Source of the DNA: Deltaproteobacteria bacterium
GTDB taxonomy: Bacteria > Desulfobacterota > Desulfobacteria > Desulfobacterales > C00003060
Direction: 5' to 3'
DNA length: 64,000 nt
Assembly: GCA_003647275.1 (NCBI GenBank)
Contig: QMMN01000005.1
Span: forward strand, 1 to 64,000
Shown one piece after another: positions 2,618 through 33,552 of the stretch (the first letter of the stretch is position 1; every line of letters starts with the position of its first letter). Position numbers and translations under genes: made by a program. The notes below the pieces were generated by a model. The model was not told the origin of the DNA. It was given only the letters and a program-made list of their open reading frames with translations, and searched no databases.

Positions 2618-5600
2618 TCAAAGCTGAAAAAGGCTGAGTTGCGTGCGCCTTGTTTTAGGATCTGACTTTGGGGAAAAGGGCTTTTTGTGTTGTTTTAAAT
2701 CTTTGTCAACGGCCTCAAGAAAAGGGGATATGTGCTGAACCGTCCTCTGCCCAAACCATTGTCGTCTCTTCACATGGGTCAGATAGATCTTTTCCTGCGC
2801 CCGTGTTAAAGCCACATAAAATAGTCTTCTCTCTTCAAGGAGATCTTCCTTTTCACTGTTTTTTCTCCTATAAGGGATCACACCGTCTTCACAACCAGCA
2901 ATAAAGACCACAGGGAACTCCAGCCCTTTGGCAGCATGCATCGTCATCAGGGAAACCTTTTCTGCAGCAGGGTCGTAAAGATCCTGCGCCTGCTCAAGGG
3001 CAAGGTGAGCCAAGAAATCATCGGCCCGGTCCTCAAAGGATCTGGACAGACCTAAAAAGGCATTGAGGTCTTCTTTAAAGGCCTCATGACCAGACATGGC
3101 ATCCATGATGCTGAATCGATCCAAAATATGGTGAATTTGTTCGTAGACACTTTTGCCATTGAGCGTCTCTTTGAGTTGGCTCAAATCCTTTGAAAATAGC
3201 CCGAGTTTGCTTCTCGGGCCTCGTTTGAGTCCGGAGATCTCGGCCGAGTGCTCGAGCGCACTGATAAGAGGATGCCCCGTGGTCTTAGTCCATTGTTTTA
3301 ACGCATGAACCGTGCTGGGGCCAATACCCCTTGAAGGAAAATTAAGGACCCTCTCCACATCAAGATCACATGCAATGGACCACCCCAACTTCAGGTAGGA
3401 AATAAGCTCTGTGATTCCCTTCCGGTTTTGAAGCTTTTCAATGCCAACCATCTGGTACGGGATACCAGATCGTGCAAAGGCCTCATCCAGGGCCTTTCCC
3501 TGTTCCTTAACCCGGTAAAGCACGGCAAAATCCGAAAAACTTCGTTCCTTTTTCTCCTGAACCCGATCAATCCGCCGGCTGTCCATGGAAAAGTGGCTGA
3601 TCCCGCCAACCGCCTGCTCAATGGTCTTGACGATGTATTCGGCCTCTGCCCTTTGGGTGGGAAGCTCAGCAACCGTCAGGACCTTTGCCCCGTAAATGCC
3701 AGACCAAATCCCTTTTTCTCCTCTCCCCGTATCATCGACACCAATAACCTGCCCGGAGGCCCGTAAAATCGTCTCTGTGGAGCGATAGTTCTGCTTAAGC
3801 AGAATCCTTTTCGCACCTGGAAAATCCTCACAAAATCTGTGAAAATATTGAACATCTGCCCCCCTGAATCCGTATATGGCCTGATCCGGGTCACCGATGA
3901 CACAAATGTCATGGCCTTCAGGTGCAAGGAGGCGGATGAGGCGATATTGGGCATAATTGACGTCCTGATATTCGTCCACAGATATGAAACAAAACCTTTG
4001 TTGGTACTTTCTCAGGATCATCCGATGGGTTTCAAAAAGTCTGACTGTCTTATAAATGAGGTCGTCAAAATCAAGAAGATGGTTCTCATCAAGGATCTCC
4101 TGATAGGCCCCATATATGGAAGGGAACTGATCCAACAAGGGCTCTGGGACAAGTCCGGCCAAATCGTCGTCCGGGGAGAGCAAGCACTGTTTGACCTTAG
4201 AAATGGTATCTGAAATGCCCTCCAGGTCAAGCCTTGACACAAGGAAGTCGTCGTGCGTCCTCTGCATGGCCGCCTTCACAAACTGGGTGCGGTCGCTTTC
4301 ATTCAATATAGATACCGTATTTCTTATTCCTAGGGCATTTGCCTCAAGAGAGATGATATCAAGACACAACCCGTGAAAAGTCTTAATGGTGACCCCCTTT
4401 AGGGCCTTTGAATCGTCAAGAATCTTGCTCAACCGTTCGGCCATCTCCTGGGCAGCTTTATTTGTAAAGGTCACAGCAAGGACCTGCTCGGGCCGGGCGA
4501 CCCTTTCTGAGATCAGGTAAGCGATGCGGTGGGTCAGGGTGAGGGTCTTTCCGGTCCCGGGGCCTGCGACGATCAAGAGTGGCCCCCCGGTGTATTGGAC
4601 CGCCTCACGCTGGGCCTCATTCAAACGATCCAATAAACCCTTTTTAGGAAAATGGTCCTCCCGGAGAAGGGGCGCTTGCTCCGGTGGAACAAAGGTTTTC
4701 TCTTTTACAGTTGAAGTAAGATGGGCGGTCTGTAATGGTTCATCGTGCGGGATAAGGGAAATCGTTTCTCTTCGGCCCCTTATCTTGGCTTTCGACAACC
4801 CCCCAAAGAGTCTCTTTTGTCCGAAAAGCTGGCTGCGTTCCTGCTCATCAAAGAGTGAGACAGTGCCAAATTCGCCGTCATATCCCGGAGCAATATAGAC
4901 CTGGTTGTTTCGCATCCTGTTGATCGCCTCGGCAAGAAGGGCTGGCCCATGTCGGTCAAGGGCCTCTAAGGGGATCTTTCTGAGGATCTCAAATTCCGGG
5001 CCAAGCCTTTCAACAAGCATCCGGTAAGCATGGGTCACCTTCTTGCTCTTGGCGCCCACCTGAAAGACCTGTGATAAGACATCGGTCAGGGGAAGGAGGC
5101 TCGTATATGGATGAGCCCCTTTTGGCTTTACACCAGCTTTGCGGTCGCCCAGTTCTTCTACCCGGTACATCACCCCAATGGTCACTGGCCTGCCACAAAT
5201 CGGGCAAAGCCCCTGGTGACGTCTGGTTTCCGCTGGTGAAAGTCTCGCGCCACATTTCCTGTGGCCATCAAAATGATATTTCCCCTCCTCGGCAAAGTAT
5301 TCAAGGGTACCCAGAAAACGTTTTGGGTCACCGGTCTTCAGGGCATCCCTGATGGCAAAATAGGAAAGGTCCGTGTCAAAAAGGTTCGCCTCCCTTCCAA
5401 GGTTACTCGGGGAGTGAGCATCCGAATTGGAAACCAGAGTGAGCCCGTCCAAGGATGAGACCCGCCAGTTCATGGCAGGATCAGAGGAAAGACCGGTTTC
5501 CACAGCAAAGATGTGGGGCGTCAGGTCCTCAAAACATTCCTCAAGCGAGTCAAAACCGGACTTGGAACCCAGGACTGAAAACCAAGGGGTCCAGATATGG

Positions 5601-29059: not shown

Positions 29060-29326
29060 TCAGCCTCGGTCTGGTACCTGTTTTCGCCTTTTCGCTTTTT
29101 CTATAAGCTCAATCAAGGTGGCCATTTTATCCTTTTGGGGTCGATTGAAACAGCGATCCCATTCTGGCTGGGTGAGTCTTCCTCTAAGATAGGTCTCCAC
29201 AGGAAAGTACGGCTGCCAGCAGGCAATAATACGCGGGCAGGGGAGATCGCCCCCCTCTTTCTGACAATAGGCAAAGGTAACCTCCCCGCCCAGCCTGGGA
29301 CATCTAATCTCTAAGTGGTCATACAT
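29060..29326 (-). CDS. Small cysteine-containing hypothetical protein, 88 aa
   Basis: The N-terminal 36 residues contain four cysteines in a C-x11-C-x8-C-x5-C pattern (IRCPRLGGEVTFAYC, then DLPCPRIIACW). This suggests a zinc or iron-sulfur site, or disulfides. The C-terminal half is helical and basic (KDKMATLIELIEKAKRRKQV). No family name can be given. It lies 37 bases downstream of trpB2 on the same strand and could be read from the same attenuated transcript, but a functional tie to tryptophan synthesis is unproven. Confidence 0.65.
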   Translation of the reverse strand: MYDHLEIRCPRLGGEVTFAYCQKEGGDLPCPRIIACWQPYFPVETYLRGRLTQPEWDRCFNRPQKDKMATLIELIEKAKRRKQVPDRG

Positions 29327-29363: not shown

Positions 29364-30725
29364 TTACGGTTTTGGAAGCCCTGCTATGGAATTGAGCGAC
29401 CCCTGGATCTCTTCATCTGGAAGTTCATACTTGGTAAGCTTACCCGAAAGATAGGCGTCATAGGCGGCAAGATCTACCAACCCATGGCCGCTCCAGTTGA
29501 AGAGGATGGTTTTCTCTTTTCCCTCCTCTTTTGCACGCTGGGCCTCTTGAACAACGGCTGCGATCGCGTGGTTGGTTTCCGGCGCCGGGATATAGCCTTC
29601 TGTCCGGGCCCATTTCACACCCGCATCAAAAGTCTCTAGCTGATTGTACGCCCTGGCTTCAACGATCTGTTCCTTGACCAGGTGGCTGATGATAGGCGCC
29701 ATACCGTGATACCTGAGACCACCTGCGTGGATGGGGGCCGGCACAAAATCATGGCCTAGGGTATGCATGGGCAACAGAGGTGTTGTCATAGCCGTATCCC
29801 CAAAATCGTAAGCAAAAGGGCCACGCGTCATGGTCGGGCATGAGGTAGGCTCAGCCGCCACAATGGAGATATCCTTACCGTGGATCTTATCCCGCACAAA
29901 CGGAAGGCATAGCCCGGCAAAGTTGCTGCCCCCGCCCGTGCAACCTATAACGACGTCAGGATATACGCCGAGTTTTTCGAGCTGCTTCTGGCATTCCAGG
30001 CCATTTATGGTCTGGTGCAACAAAACATGATTTAAAACGCTGCCCAGGGAATACCGTGCGTCTTCATCGCTCACAGCATCTTCAATGGCTTCGCTGATAG
30101 CTATGCCCAGGCTCCCCGGCGAATCTGGAATTTCAGCCAGGATCTTTCTCCCTGCCTCGGTCTTGTCGCTCGGGCTTGGAATACAATTGGCGCCCCAGGT
30201 CATCATCATCATCCGTCGGTATGGTTTTTGTTCATAGCTGACTTTCACCATGAACACCCGACATTCAAGGCCAAACATCTGACACGCCATGCTCAGGGCA
30301 CTTCCCCACTGGCCCGCGCCGGTCTCCGTAGAAAGTCGCTTTACCCCAAAAACCTTGTTGTAATAGGCCTGGGCAACGGCCGTATTGGGCTTATGGGATC
30401 CAGGAGGACTCACCCCTTCATTCTTGTAGTAGATCTTCACAGGGGCGTCTAGCAACTTCTCAAAGTTTCTCGCCCGGCAAAGCGGTGTTGGTCTCCACAG
30501 GAGATATTTTTCCAGGACTTCCTCAGGGATGTCAATCCAGCGTTCTGTGCTCACCTCCTGTTCGATAAGATTCATGGGAAAAACCGGGGCCAGATCGTCA
30601 GGGCCAATTGGTTGCCCTGTTCCTGGATGGAGTGGTGGACTCATAGGAGTTGGCATGTCAGCCAAAATATTGTACCACTGCTTCGGGATTTCACGGTCAT
30701 CTAAGAATACCTTCACCGGTTCCAT
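29364..30725 (-). CDS. trpB: TrpB2-type tryptophan synthase beta chain
   Basis: The 453-residue product is the long TrpB2 form, a PLP enzyme that condenses indole (or takes O-phosphoserine in some archaea) with serine to make tryptophan. The PLP lysine is in [16 protein letters not shown] near residue 112, followed by [16 protein letters not shown]. The phosphate-binding loop is [11 protein letters not shown], and the C-terminal NWSGHG is intact. TrpB2 differs from TrpB1 in having an N-terminal extension and in often lacking an adjacent trpA, as is true here. AGGAGG precedes the ATG. A leader peptide with three Trp codons and an attenuator lie upstream, which strongly supports a tryptophan-related role. 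Confidence 0.95.
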
Positions 30726-30785
30726 AACACGTCCTCCTTATCAGGTTTTTCAAGAAAACTAACAGCTAAAGGTGAACTATTACCC

Positions 30786-30813
30786 AAAAAAAGCCATGGA
30801 GAAAACCCATGGC
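30786..30813 (-). terminator. Rho-independent terminator (trp attenuator) upstream of trpB2
   Basis: On the minus strand GCCATGG (30812-30806) pairs with CCATGGC (30799-30793) across a short T-rich loop and is followed by seven Ts (30792-30786). The terminator lies about 60 bases before the trpB2 ATG, inside its leader. It must be read through for trpB2 to be expressed. Confidence 0.85.
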
Positions 30814-30918
30814 AGTTCTGCTTATGCTCAGAGCCGTGGGAAGATTTCTCTTGCCCACAACTCACCTTTTATTTTTTAGAATGGCGCGTCCGTGGGCAGG
30901 CTCATCTCACGGCCTGCC
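30786..30918 (-). promoter_or_regulatory. Tryptophan attenuator: six-segment alternative hairpin leader
   Basis: Six segments can pair in alternative ways. Segment 1 is GGCAGGC (30918-30912), 2 is GCCTGCCCACGG (30901-30890), 3 is GTGGGCAAGA (30858-30849), 4 is TCTTCCCACGGC (30844-30833), 5 is GCCATGGG (30813-30806) and 6 is CCATGGC (30799-30793). Pairs 1:2, 3:4 and 5:6 form one state, ending in the terminator. Pairs 2:3 (TGCCCAC with GTGGGCA) and 4:5 (seven of eight bases) form the other and free the U-tract. A ribosome stalled on the Trp codons covers segment 1 and favours read-through. One that reaches the stop codon covers segment 2 and favours termination. The pairings are seen; the switching is inferred. 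Confidence 0.75.
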
Positions 30919-30958
30919 ACCACCAATAGAAGGCTTTATGCCCTCCTCTAAGACTCAT
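30902..30958 (-). CDS. trpL: Trp leader peptide with three consecutive Trp codons
   Basis: The 18-codon frame encodes MSLRGGHKAFYWWWQAVR. The run of three TGG codons (30925-30917) lies directly at the first pairing segment of the attenuator hairpins, and the TGA (30904-30902) abuts the second. This is the arrangement of classical leader peptides that sense charged tRNA-Trp through ribosome stalling. The ribosome binding site is weak (AAGTGG upstream of the ATG). An in-frame GTG three codons earlier is possible. Chance is unlikely given position, Trp content and the terminator that follows. Confidence 0.8.
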   Translation of the reverse strand: MSLRGGHKAFYWWWQAVR

Positions 30959-31099
30959 AAGTGCCACTTATCTTTACGTGTTCTTCGATTTTAAATAACA
31001 AAATGGCAAACATGTGTCAAGGCCGAAAATCACCATCTAGAAATCAAGACTTCGCCCCCTTAGGGGAACGCCACACTGCTACGCCAGCCTGCCGACTTT

Positions 31100-31354
31100 C
31101 TATACAATTTTATAAACAGTATCGTGTTCGCGGACCCTTTCTTTAACCTTAATCCCGATAAGATCTCCTGGCCTTGCCTCCTCAATAGGCTGGTTGTCCA
31201 TTTGCATGCTCGTGACAGTCTCTTCAAAATCGCTGGTATGCCCCTTAAAATGGAGCTTGTCTCCAATCCTGAGCACACCTGAAGTGATTTCAACAGCTGC
31301 CACACTCGGTTTGGCAAAAAACTTTTGCACCTTGCCGACCTTTTCTTCTTCCAT
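31100..31354 (-). CDS. EF-Tu domain-2-like small protein
   Basis: This 84-residue protein consists only of an EF-Tu/EF-G domain-2-like beta barrel: KVGKVQKFFAKPSVAAVEIT, VLRIGDKLHFKGHTSDFEETV, and the typical IEEARPGDLIGIKVKERVREHD. It has no GTPase domain. Such proteins are usually annotated as translation elongation factor-like and their role is unknown. In larger GTPases the fold contacts tRNA acceptor ends or the ribosome. The ATG at 31354 is preferred because AGGAGGTAAT lies just before it; the frame stays open further upstream without an SD. A promoter-like pair is visible 38 bases upstream of this start. Confidence 0.8.
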   Translation of the reverse strand: MEEEKVGKVQKFFAKPSVAAVEITSGVLRIGDKLHFKGHTSDFEETVTSMQMDNQPIEEARPGDLIGIKVKERVREHDTVYKIV

Positions 31355-31391
31355 ATCATTACCTCCTGCACGCAGGTTAAGGTTGATACTA

Positions 31392-31420
31392 TTTATACAC
31401 TTAACCCATTTACAAAGCAA
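31392..31420 (-). promoter_or_regulatory. Sigma-70-like promoter for the EF-Tu-like gene
   Basis: On the minus strand TTGCTT (31420-31415) and TATAAA (31397-31392) are separated by 17 bases. They lie upstream of the strong ribosome binding site and ATG at 31354. The site is in the gap between two divergent genes. No experimental support is implied. Confidence 0.45.
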
Positions 31421-31470
31421 CCGCGTTTTGGTAAAATTTTCTTTTAATTTGAAAATCTGAGGAGTCCATA

Positions 31471-33552
31471 ATGTTTTTCGTGGCCGATAAGTCAGGGCCC
31501 AACAAATTCAGGGTCTGGCAATACCTTCTTATAATGGGCCTTTTTGTCCTTTCGGCTTGTGCGCCGATCCGTGTGCCGACTAAGGTACCGCCATCACCTG
31601 AGGTCACCCGGGCCCTCAAGCAATTTGAAAAAGCCGAACGCTTCTTTCAAGAGCAGGCGTATGCAAAGGCTCTCGCCATCTATCAGGATTACCTCAAGCG
31701 ATCTCCAAAGGGCCCTCTGGTCGACACAGCGCTGATGAAGGCAGGCTTAGCTTACATGGCTGTGGGGAACTATGCTAAAGCCGGACAAGCTTTTCAGCGT
31801 CTGGTATCTGAGTATCCGAAAAGTCCATTTGTGGAAGAGGCCAGAGTCAACGTCATACTTACGTATTATCATGAGGGAGATTACGCATCAGCTATTCAGT
31901 CCGCAAAATCCGCTCTAAGGTTTGCGATGACGCCTCGCCAAAAAGCTCGCATACACAATTTTATGGGCTACGCCTATAGCGCCACCAAGCAGTTCAAGGA
32001 CGCAATCAAAAGTTATATGGACGCTTATAAACTAGCTCCAGAACAGGAGCGCCCGGAAATCTTGAGCAAGGTGAAGGAGGTTATAACCTACCTAAAAGAA
32101 GTAGAATTGAATTCCCTTCTTGAGGTGTTTAGGGACAGGATACCCGGCGGCTATTTACGCCTTCAACTGGCAAAGGAGTACGCATCAAAGGACCGCATTG
32201 AGCCCGCCTTGAAAGTCCTGTCGGATTTCATCGCCCTATTCCCGCACCATGACGAACTTGAAACTGCCATGGCCCTCATGGAGGAATTAAAGTCCAGATC
32301 ACTCGTGAATCGTTTCTTGATCGGTTGTATCCTGCCGCTGAGTGGGCCCTACAGCACATTTGGGAATCGAGCCCTTACGGGGATTGAGCTTGCTCTTGCC
32401 CAATTCAACGCAAAAAGCGATGTGCACCCCGTTCAGTTGCTCATCAGGGACTCAAAAGGAGACCCCAGTGCGGCCGCCAGGGCTGTTGAGAGCCTAGCCC
32501 TGAAGGATGGTGTCATAGGTATTATCGGACCCATGATTACATCAGAGTCCGCTGCCATCAAGGCCCAGGCCCTCAAGGTTCCCATCATGACACTGACCCA
32601 GAAGTCGGATATAACCAAATTGGGAGACTACGTCTTTCGAAATTTTCTGACCCTATCCCTGCAGGTAAAAGCCATTGTAGCTTATACAGCCCAGGAGCTG
32701 GGAATCAAAAAATTCGCCATCCTGTACCCTCAGGAACCCTATGGTATTTCCTTTATGAACAAATTTTGGGACGAATTAATAGCCCACGGTGCTGAGGTCG
32801 TGGGCATTGAATCGTATGGCCCCGACCAAACCGACTTTGCCGATGCCATTAAGAAATTAGTCGGCCTCTATTATCCAAGACCTGAAGAACCCGAAGACGA
32901 AGAAAGCCCTGAAATCACAGACCCCCTCCTCGACTTCCTATCAGCCAGGCAGGAAGCTGAGGGCCCCTTCTTAGACGCTCAAGGAAATAAGATGCCTCAG
33001 TTAGGTCCGCAGGTACCCCTTTCACCACCAAATGAAACCGATCTCCCATCAGAAGAGGAGAAGGAGCCTGAACCGATCGTTGATTTCGAAGCCATCTTTA
33101 TCCCGGACACTTTCGAGAAAGTGGGTCTGATTGCCCCCCAGTTCCTGTATTATGATGTGGCTAATGTCCTGCTGATAGGGACCAATCTATGGCATTCGGA
33201 TAAACTCATTGAAATGGCCCGAGGCTATGTGCAAGGTGCTGTTGTGCCTGATGGTTTTTTCATAGATAGCCCATCTTCCAAGGTCCAAAATTTTGTCAAA
33301 GCCTTTCAAGACCTCTTTGGTAGCTCGCCAGGATTTCTGGAAGCTCAAGCCTACGACGCGGCCTGTATCCTTTTCCAACTGGTCAACCAGCCTCAGGTCC
33401 GGTCCAGACACACGTTGAAAATGGGCCTCATGCAAGTCAAAGACTTTCCCGGAGTAACTGGCCCTACCTCCTTTGATGAAACCGGGGATGTGGAAAAAGA
33501 GATTTACCTCCTCAAGATAAAAGGACGTCAGTTTGTACAAATAAGGCCATGA
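31471..33552 (+). CDS. Lipoprotein with TPR repeats and periplasmic-binding (LpoA/Peripla_BP_6-like) domain
   Basis: A lipoprotein signal ends in FVLSAC, with the lipid-bearing Cys at residue 30. Residues about 45-250 are TPR units like those of BamD/YbgF-type proteins (FFQEQAYAKALAIYQDYLKR, GNYAKAGQAFQRLVSEYPKS). From about 283 a type-1 periplasmic-binding fold follows (IGCILPLSGPYSTFGNRALTG, GVIGIIGPMITSESAAIKAQ). The order matches LpoA-type activators of penicillin-binding proteins, so a peptidoglycan-synthesis role in the outer membrane is plausible. An acidic, Pro-rich insertion of about 65 residues (near 472-537) interrupts the binding fold. The stop overlaps waaA by four bases. Confidence 0.85.
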   Translation: MFFVADKSGPNKFRVWQYLLIMGLFVLSACAPIRVPTKVPPSPEVTRALKQFEKAERFFQEQAYAKALAIYQDYLKRSPKGPLVDTALMKAGLAYMAVGNYAKAGQAFQRLVSEYPKSPFVEEARVNVILTYYHEGDYASAIQSAKSALRFAMTPRQKARIHNFMGYAYSATKQFKDAIKSYMDAYKLAPEQERPEILSKVKEVITYLKEVELNSLLEVFRDRIPGGYLRLQLAKEYASKDRIEPALKVLSDFIALFPHHDELETAMALMEELKSRSLVNRFLIGCILPLSGPYSTFGNRALTGIELALAQFNAKSDVHPVQLLIRDSKGDPSAAARAVESLALKDGVIGIIGPMITSESAAIKAQALKVPIMTLTQKSDITKLGDYVFRNFLTLSLQVKAIVAYTAQELGIKKFAILYPQEPYGISFMNKFWDELIAHGAEVVGIESYGPDQTDFADAIKKLVGLYYPRPEEPEDEESPEITDPLLDFLSARQEAEGPFLDAQGNKMPQLGPQVPLSPPNETDLPSEEEKEPEPIVDFEAIFIPDTFEKVGLIAPQFLYYDVANVLLIGTNLWHSDKLIEMARGYVQGAVVPDGFFIDSPSSKVQNFVKAFQDLFGSSPGFLEAQAYDAACILFQLVNQPQVRSRHTLKMGLMQVKDFPGVTGPTSFDETGDVEKEIYLLKIKGRQFVQIRP

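Follow-up and report, generated by a model that had tools for sequence, protein, structure and literature searches.

The trpB2 gene on the minus strand of the 64,000-nt stretch of DNA analyzed here ("the window"; contig QMMN01000005.1 of a Deltaproteobacteria bacterium, assembly GCA_003647275.1) is probably controlled by a ribosome-mediated transcription attenuator that responds to charged tRNA-Trp. As the original prediction had it, trpB2 is preceded by an 18-codon leader ORF, in which three Trp codons stand in tandem, by three hairpins, and by an intrinsic terminator, the last lying between the leader ORF and the structural gene; all of these were recovered on the minus strand (Table 1). Judged from its sequence and its calculated folds, the element most likely serves to raise TrpB2 when charged tRNA-Trp is short.

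Table 1. Features of the trpB2 locus, in window coordinates
Feature	Position	Strand	Remarks
trpB2 (TrpB-like PLP enzyme, 453 aa)	29364-30725	minus	start 30725
Ribosome-binding site of trpB2, AAGGAGGAC	30731-30739	minus	good
T7 tract	30786-30792	minus	directly after terminator stem
Hairpin 5:6	30813-30793	minus	intrinsic terminator stem
Hairpin 3:4	30863-30831	minus	extra (relay) hairpin; no U-tract in the window
Segment 2 in its 2:3-paired form	30890-30899	minus	
Hairpin 1:2	30918-30895	minus	segment 1 overlaps Trp codons; segment 2 after stop codon
Trp codons, three in tandem	30925-30917	minus	
Leader ORF, 18 codons, MSLRGGHKAFYWWWQAVR	30958-30902	minus	stop TGA
Promoter-like TTGACA-17 nt-TATTTA	30992-31020	minus	TTGACA 31020-31015, TATTTA 30997-30992; a reading of the sequence

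The product of trpB2 passes two curated cut-offs, those of NF009057 (747 bits; cut-off 366) and TIGR01415 (670.5 bits; cut-off 518.85). Among solved structures, the chains closest to it are 6hul, 4qys, and 6hte (E values of 4.5e-131 to 3.5e-125, the next being 5e-36), which we take to be TrpB2 enzymes. Hairpin 5:6 is the sole minus-strand terminator site in a scan of 30600-31480, which returned 2 sites in total against 1.0 expected in shuffled sequence, and the stability of the leader fold is equaled or bettered by 1 of 200 shuffles (z -3.06). Transcription of the leader would start from the promoter-like site. This site is unlisted by a consensus scan that requires T at the sixth -10 position; TTGACA and TTGTTAT are found again in the related loci L085 and L086. 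No clear Shine-Dalgarno sequence was found at the window's leader ORF, a point against the attenuator. Two further structures were set aside: a fold on the plus strand, which mirrors the minus-strand element, and a long-range stem, AAAGGTGA/TCACCTTT, which encloses 3:4 and 5:6 in the window, is lost in L002, and is partial in L083.

The locus has small neighbors on both sides. An 88-aa ORF with no Pfam match (29060-29326, minus strand) begins 37 nt downstream of trpB2 in the same orientation and may share its transcript. Just upstream of the promoter-like site, at 31100-31420 on the minus strand, lies a gene for a small protein like part of elongation factors Tu and 1-alpha; a similar coding sequence also precedes trpB2 in L082 and L085.

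The proposed switch has three states. When Trp is plentiful, the ribosome would pass the Trp codons, reach the stop codon, and cover segment 2; 3:4 would then fold, segment 5 would be left free to form 5:6, and transcription would end. When Trp is short, the ribosome would stall on the Trp codons and cover segment 1, allowing segment 2 to pair with segment 3; with 2:3 formed, segment 4 would be free to pair with segment 5, and the terminator would come too late to form. When the leader is not translated, 1:2, 3:4, and 5:6 would all form, again giving termination. In this scheme, the part played by the extra hairpin 3:4 would be to limit basal read-through, a role that has been suggested for the additional hairpin of the his attenuator.

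By itself, TGGTGGTGG is not rare in the window, with 5 occurrences against 0.69 expected, and the case for the leader therefore rests on conservation. The same frequency speaks for a plain constitutive terminator beside a chance Trp-rich ORF, with no Trp control. That explanation is extremely improbable, since the frame, the Trp run, and the pairings recur before trpB2 in distant genomes, and Trp runs also occur before trpE.

Conservation was assessed at 110 TrpB2 loci, i.e., the best 80 of at least 558 from genome contigs and 30 from 60 related genomes; setting aside 2 loci cut at the start and 4 duplicates leaves 104 distinct upstream regions. The leader is present at 27 of these: 26 of the 40 loci with TrpB2 identity of at least 75%, and 1 of the 64 below that value. 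At the other 14 close loci, it is absent or unreadable; these include L003, L082, and L088 (85-91% identity), and the start of L091 is unreadable. The list of 27 was made by eye and equals the set of leader-strand matches to a covariance model with E <1e-4, the model having been run on 100 of the 110 loci (excluding the 2 cut loci, the 4 duplicates, and L107-L110, which had the pattern screen only). Seeded with 23 leaders, the model recovered L009, L014, L044, and L104, which were known from the pattern and lie outside the seed. It also found new leaders, L120-L125, in six genomes from one genus of another family; by eye, five of these precede a TrpB2 gene, and the contig of L125 ends before the following gene. 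The combined set of 32 trpB2 leaders omits L121, since L121 and L123 have identical leaders. Loci that carry the leader include L025 and L020, from records named Syntrophus and Smithella. A search for relatives of L104 returned its own genome only. Inspection by eye of the region upstream of trpB2 in L011 pointed to a variant leader, MAIIRWCENMNRRWRPRARGMPL, with an apparently single terminator behind it, which suggests a four-segment form.

An alignment of related trpB2 leaders, proposed along with the original prediction, shows conservation of the Trp run, the frame, and pairings 2:3 and 4:5, with compensatory changes. The frame is open from a start codon through the Trp codons in 31 of the 32 leaders (26 with ATG, 1 with GTG, 4 with TTG). 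At least three consecutive Trp codons are present in 28 (WWWQ in 21, WWWR in 5, WWWA in 1, WWWP in 1), as expected of a leader peptide that would report on Trp supply. The leaders that fall short of a three-Trp run are L044 (two), L085 and L087 (not consecutive), and L086 (two), the last of which also has an in-frame stop ahead of the Trp codons. The peptide ends in VCP or ICP in several Syntrophaceae-like records, so that the stop codon falls at the end of segment 2.

The pairings were examined in two alignments: A2, with 23 rows, made with MAFFT and unfitted, and A4, with all 32 rows, fitted to the 1:2/3:4/5:6 fold and not to 2:3 or 4:5 (L104 is partly misaligned in A4). In A4, all five helices are complementary in 88-99% of cells, with two single flanking pairs lower, and the terminator helix 5:6 is paired in 99.2%. 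The alternative helices 2:3 and 4:5 are together paired in 90.4% of cells, against 29-53% in slid controls. Both-side changes occur at 6 of their 16 pairs, a number reached in 2 of 500 shuffles, and 16 cells are changed on both sides, a number reached in none of 500, with the caveat that these shuffle statistics, like those for A2, ignore the relatedness of the rows. In A2, 89.6% of cells of the two helices are paired (slid controls, 36-51%), and both-side changes affect 14 cells, compared with 5.8 in shuffles. They affect 4 pairs, which is not exceptional, since 96 of 500 shuffles match that number. The outer pair of 2:3 is CG in 19 leaders, UA in 9, UG in 3, and GC in 1. One 4:5 pair is UA in 22, UG in 4, CG in 2, and unpaired in 4, among them the window, whose own 4:5 helix has one C.A mismatch.

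Folds were also calculated for the leaders. To represent a stalled ribosome, the RNA was masked as far as 15 nt beyond the point where the third Trp-run codon begins, and the transcript was ended after segment 5. Under these conditions, 2:3 is predicted in 27 of 32 leaders, 4:5 in 27, and both in 26, including the window's leader (26 and 26 for the two helices by a stricter measure), and segment 5 is held back in 30. Hairpin 3:4 retains four or more expected pairs in 7 of the 32. In L002, the closest named relative, 4:5 does not form in the stall fold, and in L086, neither 2:3 nor 4:5 forms. When the ribosome is placed at the stop codon, 24 of 30 leaders fold 3:4 and all 30 fold the terminator; with no ribosome, the terminator forms in 32 of 32. 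The mutually exclusive pairings named in the original prediction are thus present in both the comparative and the calculated evidence, and they are predicted to link the Trp codons to the terminator.

Two features of the calculation count against the attenuator. When the complete leader is folded with a stalled ribosome, 5:6 is favored at equilibrium in 26 of 32 leaders (0.44 in the window's leader); read-through must therefore be kinetic, needing co-transcriptional timing. In 5 of 30 leaders, 4:5 is above 0.5 even in the translated state as long as segment 6 is still missing from the transcript.

Three of the 32 leaders (L004, L005, and L044) use 2:5 in the stalled state instead. This behavior, together with the likeness of segments 2 and 4, is what would be seen in a Trp attenuator without a relay, in which 3:4 is a mere insert and the stalled state is a direct 2:5 pairing around it, in four-segment style. 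We consider such an arrangement very unlikely for the window, because its own leader is among the 26 that fold 2:3 with 4:5 and because 2:3 has changed on both sides, with CG, UA, and GC all found at its outer pair.

A different difficulty arises from the resemblance of hairpin 3:4 to hairpin 5:6, through which the complementarity of 4 and 5 could be a by-product. The leader might then consist of two serial terminators, the first worn down in the window's lineage, with 4:5 a functionless consequence of the duplicated hairpin. In the window's genus, the 4:5 core is indeed what duplicate stems would yield, and extension of 4:5 into the loops is zero (L001, L002, L083, L085, and L086). Across 19 representatives of the trpB2 leaders, however, 4:5 extends into both hairpin loops, which neither stem constrains, with a total of 29 against 12.0 (reached by 3 of 5,000 shuffles; L104 and L044 were left out). 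L104 has unlike sequence and yet retains a 9-bp 4:5 helix between the loop regions, matched by 2 of 5,000 shuffles for stretches that were picked by eye. The loop extension and the L104 helix speak against 4:5 as a by-product, and we regard serial terminators with a functionless 4:5 as unlikely.

Leaders before other genes bear on the same question. The leader model matches 160 of the 291 genomes of the order at E <=0.01, many of them weakly. For 22 weaker matches, the first downstream ORF, judged by eye, resembles TrpE in 18, TrpD in 1, TrpC in 1, and an aldolase in 1, and it is unavailable in 1; Pfam confirms TrpE downstream of L149, L151, and L166, the last lying outside the 22. A trpB2 leader and a trpE leader occur together in two genomes, G011 and G036. 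The trpE leaders resemble the trpB2 leaders in their Trp-run peptide and in having hairpins caught by the same covariance model. They differ in scoring lower (31-61 bits versus 77-114 bits for 29 of the 32 trpB2 leaders) and in that their 3:4 hairpin is usually followed by its own T-run, a feature found also in trpB2 leaders L120-L125, L014, and L044. At least two terminator-like hairpins are present in 21 of the 22 weaker, mostly trpE-side leaders (among L128-L155). Both this and the T-runs after 3:4 in some trpB2 leaders favor serial terminators.

Because the trpE leaders are misplaced in several rows of the model alignment A5, pair counts were dropped and folds were computed, for all 22 weak matches and seven trpB2 leaders. 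In this rough calculation, a stalled ribosome gives 4:5 in 13 of 21 weaker-match leaders, 4:5 also forms after release in 8 of 21, and 16 of 21 still fold the first hairpin at the T-run that belongs to it. Switching is clean in only 5 of 21, a poor result for a trpE-side relay that again favors serial terminators, with some rows misplaced by the hairpin finder. In L128, L132, L120, L122, L123, and L125, what the finder took for the second site is a T-run within the last loop, and in L135, L142, and L151, it chose an early hairpin that is spurious; for the trpB2 leaders, the alignment-based fold counts are used over the hairpin-finder counts.

These observations could be accommodated by a Trp attenuator family, so far unlisted, with a single ribosome controlling two serial hairpins through strand exchange. 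Both hairpins would be terminators in trpE leaders and some trpB2 leaders, and in the window's lineage, the first would have lost its U-tract and would serve as a relay only. We put this forward tentatively and think it rather doubtful, given the small share of trpE-side leaders that switch cleanly.

Two other matches to the leader model were recorded. At L162, in genome G037, a TrpD-like gene (4118-5194, minus strand) is convergent with trpB2 and has its own match at 5252-5416 (minus strand; 44.7 bits). The match at L141 (1501-1619, minus strand) has no Trp-rich peptide; judged by eye, the gene after it resembles a DhnA-type aldolase.

The original prediction also described trpB2 as lacking trpA or other trp genes nearby. 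This is true of the neighborhood, and in the window's assembly (3.0 Mb, 96.3% complete), we found no trpB1, no trpA (found in 17 of 21 genomes), no trpC (found in 9 of 13), and no strong trpE, the single match being of 50.8 bits compared with 108-142 bits in five other genomes. It cannot be carried over to the organism with the same force: in relatives from the genus, a single operon holds these genes, and in G012, G013, and G016, contigs are broken within or next to that operon, so that the absence from the window's assembly may be an assembly gap. One gene that lies next to trpE in G016 has matches in 6 of 8 genomes, but relatives that possess it carry it on a different contig from their trp genes. 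For TrpD, the window's assembly has a 244-bit gene resembling the second G036 copy. A search for TrpR in 20 genomes found it in none; among 14 controls, E. coli and B. subtilis were positive.

In E. coli, the trp attenuator has a tandem-Trp leader peptide, a segment 1 overlapping the Trp codons, and an intrinsic terminator before the gene, and the his attenuator pairs in a full A-to-F scheme. No Rfam family, Trp_leader (RF00513) included, matches the window or 20 loci at gathering score, nor does a T-box match the window at that score; the low-score matches (best E 1.3) look like chance. The element shares with RF00513 all three of the trp features just listed (see also PMC1183508). It differs in having six segments and a lone trpB2, where E. 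coli has four regions (PMC1183508) and a trp operon. The six segments, presented in the original prediction as unlike the E. coli design, do set the element apart from E. coli trp; they are not a novelty, since an additional hairpin also separates the pause hairpin from the terminator in the his attenuator of Salmonella and E. coli (PMC1183508), whose terminator stem is named E+F (PMC10065794). Hairpin 3:4 occupies the corresponding position here, between the first hairpin and the terminator. The his attenuator has His codons and his genes, whereas Trp codons and trpB2 are found here. The authors of PMC1183508 propose, in the part cited, that the extra his hairpin minimizes basal read-through, while in trp the repressor shuts expression off; no such repressor turned up among the 20 genomes searched for TrpR. 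Given the his-like extra hairpin and a TrpR that was not found, we place the window's element as a Trp attenuator on the his plan. It is a variant of the Trp attenuator, and its six-segment plan, having a his precedent, is new only relative to E. coli trp.

A candidate attenuator before trpB2A of Corynebacterium diphtheriae has already been published (PMC1262725). It likewise has a Trp leader peptide ahead of a gene named trpB2; unlike the present case, the gene is in an operon with trpA, and the cited part of that paper calls Corynebacterium trp attenuators classical. In the open-licence literature, we found no report of such an element for a lone trpB2 or for these bacteria.

The role of stand-alone TrpB2 is debated: serine deaminase has been proposed as a second role, and gene neighborhoods are described, in the part of PMC1854888 cited here, as uninformative on an additional function. 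Trp control of trpB2 through an attenuator of its own, in addition to the one before trpE, suggests that TrpB2 counts, for the cell, as an enzyme of Trp synthesis; it may make Trp from indole and serine or phosphoserine in this organism. If one ribosome does control two serial hairpins by strand exchange across a wider family, TrpB2 and the trp operon would answer to one signal in genomes that yielded no TrpR. The element also offers a natural setting for testing the proposed effect of an extra hairpin, namely, lower basal read-through where no Trp repressor acts.
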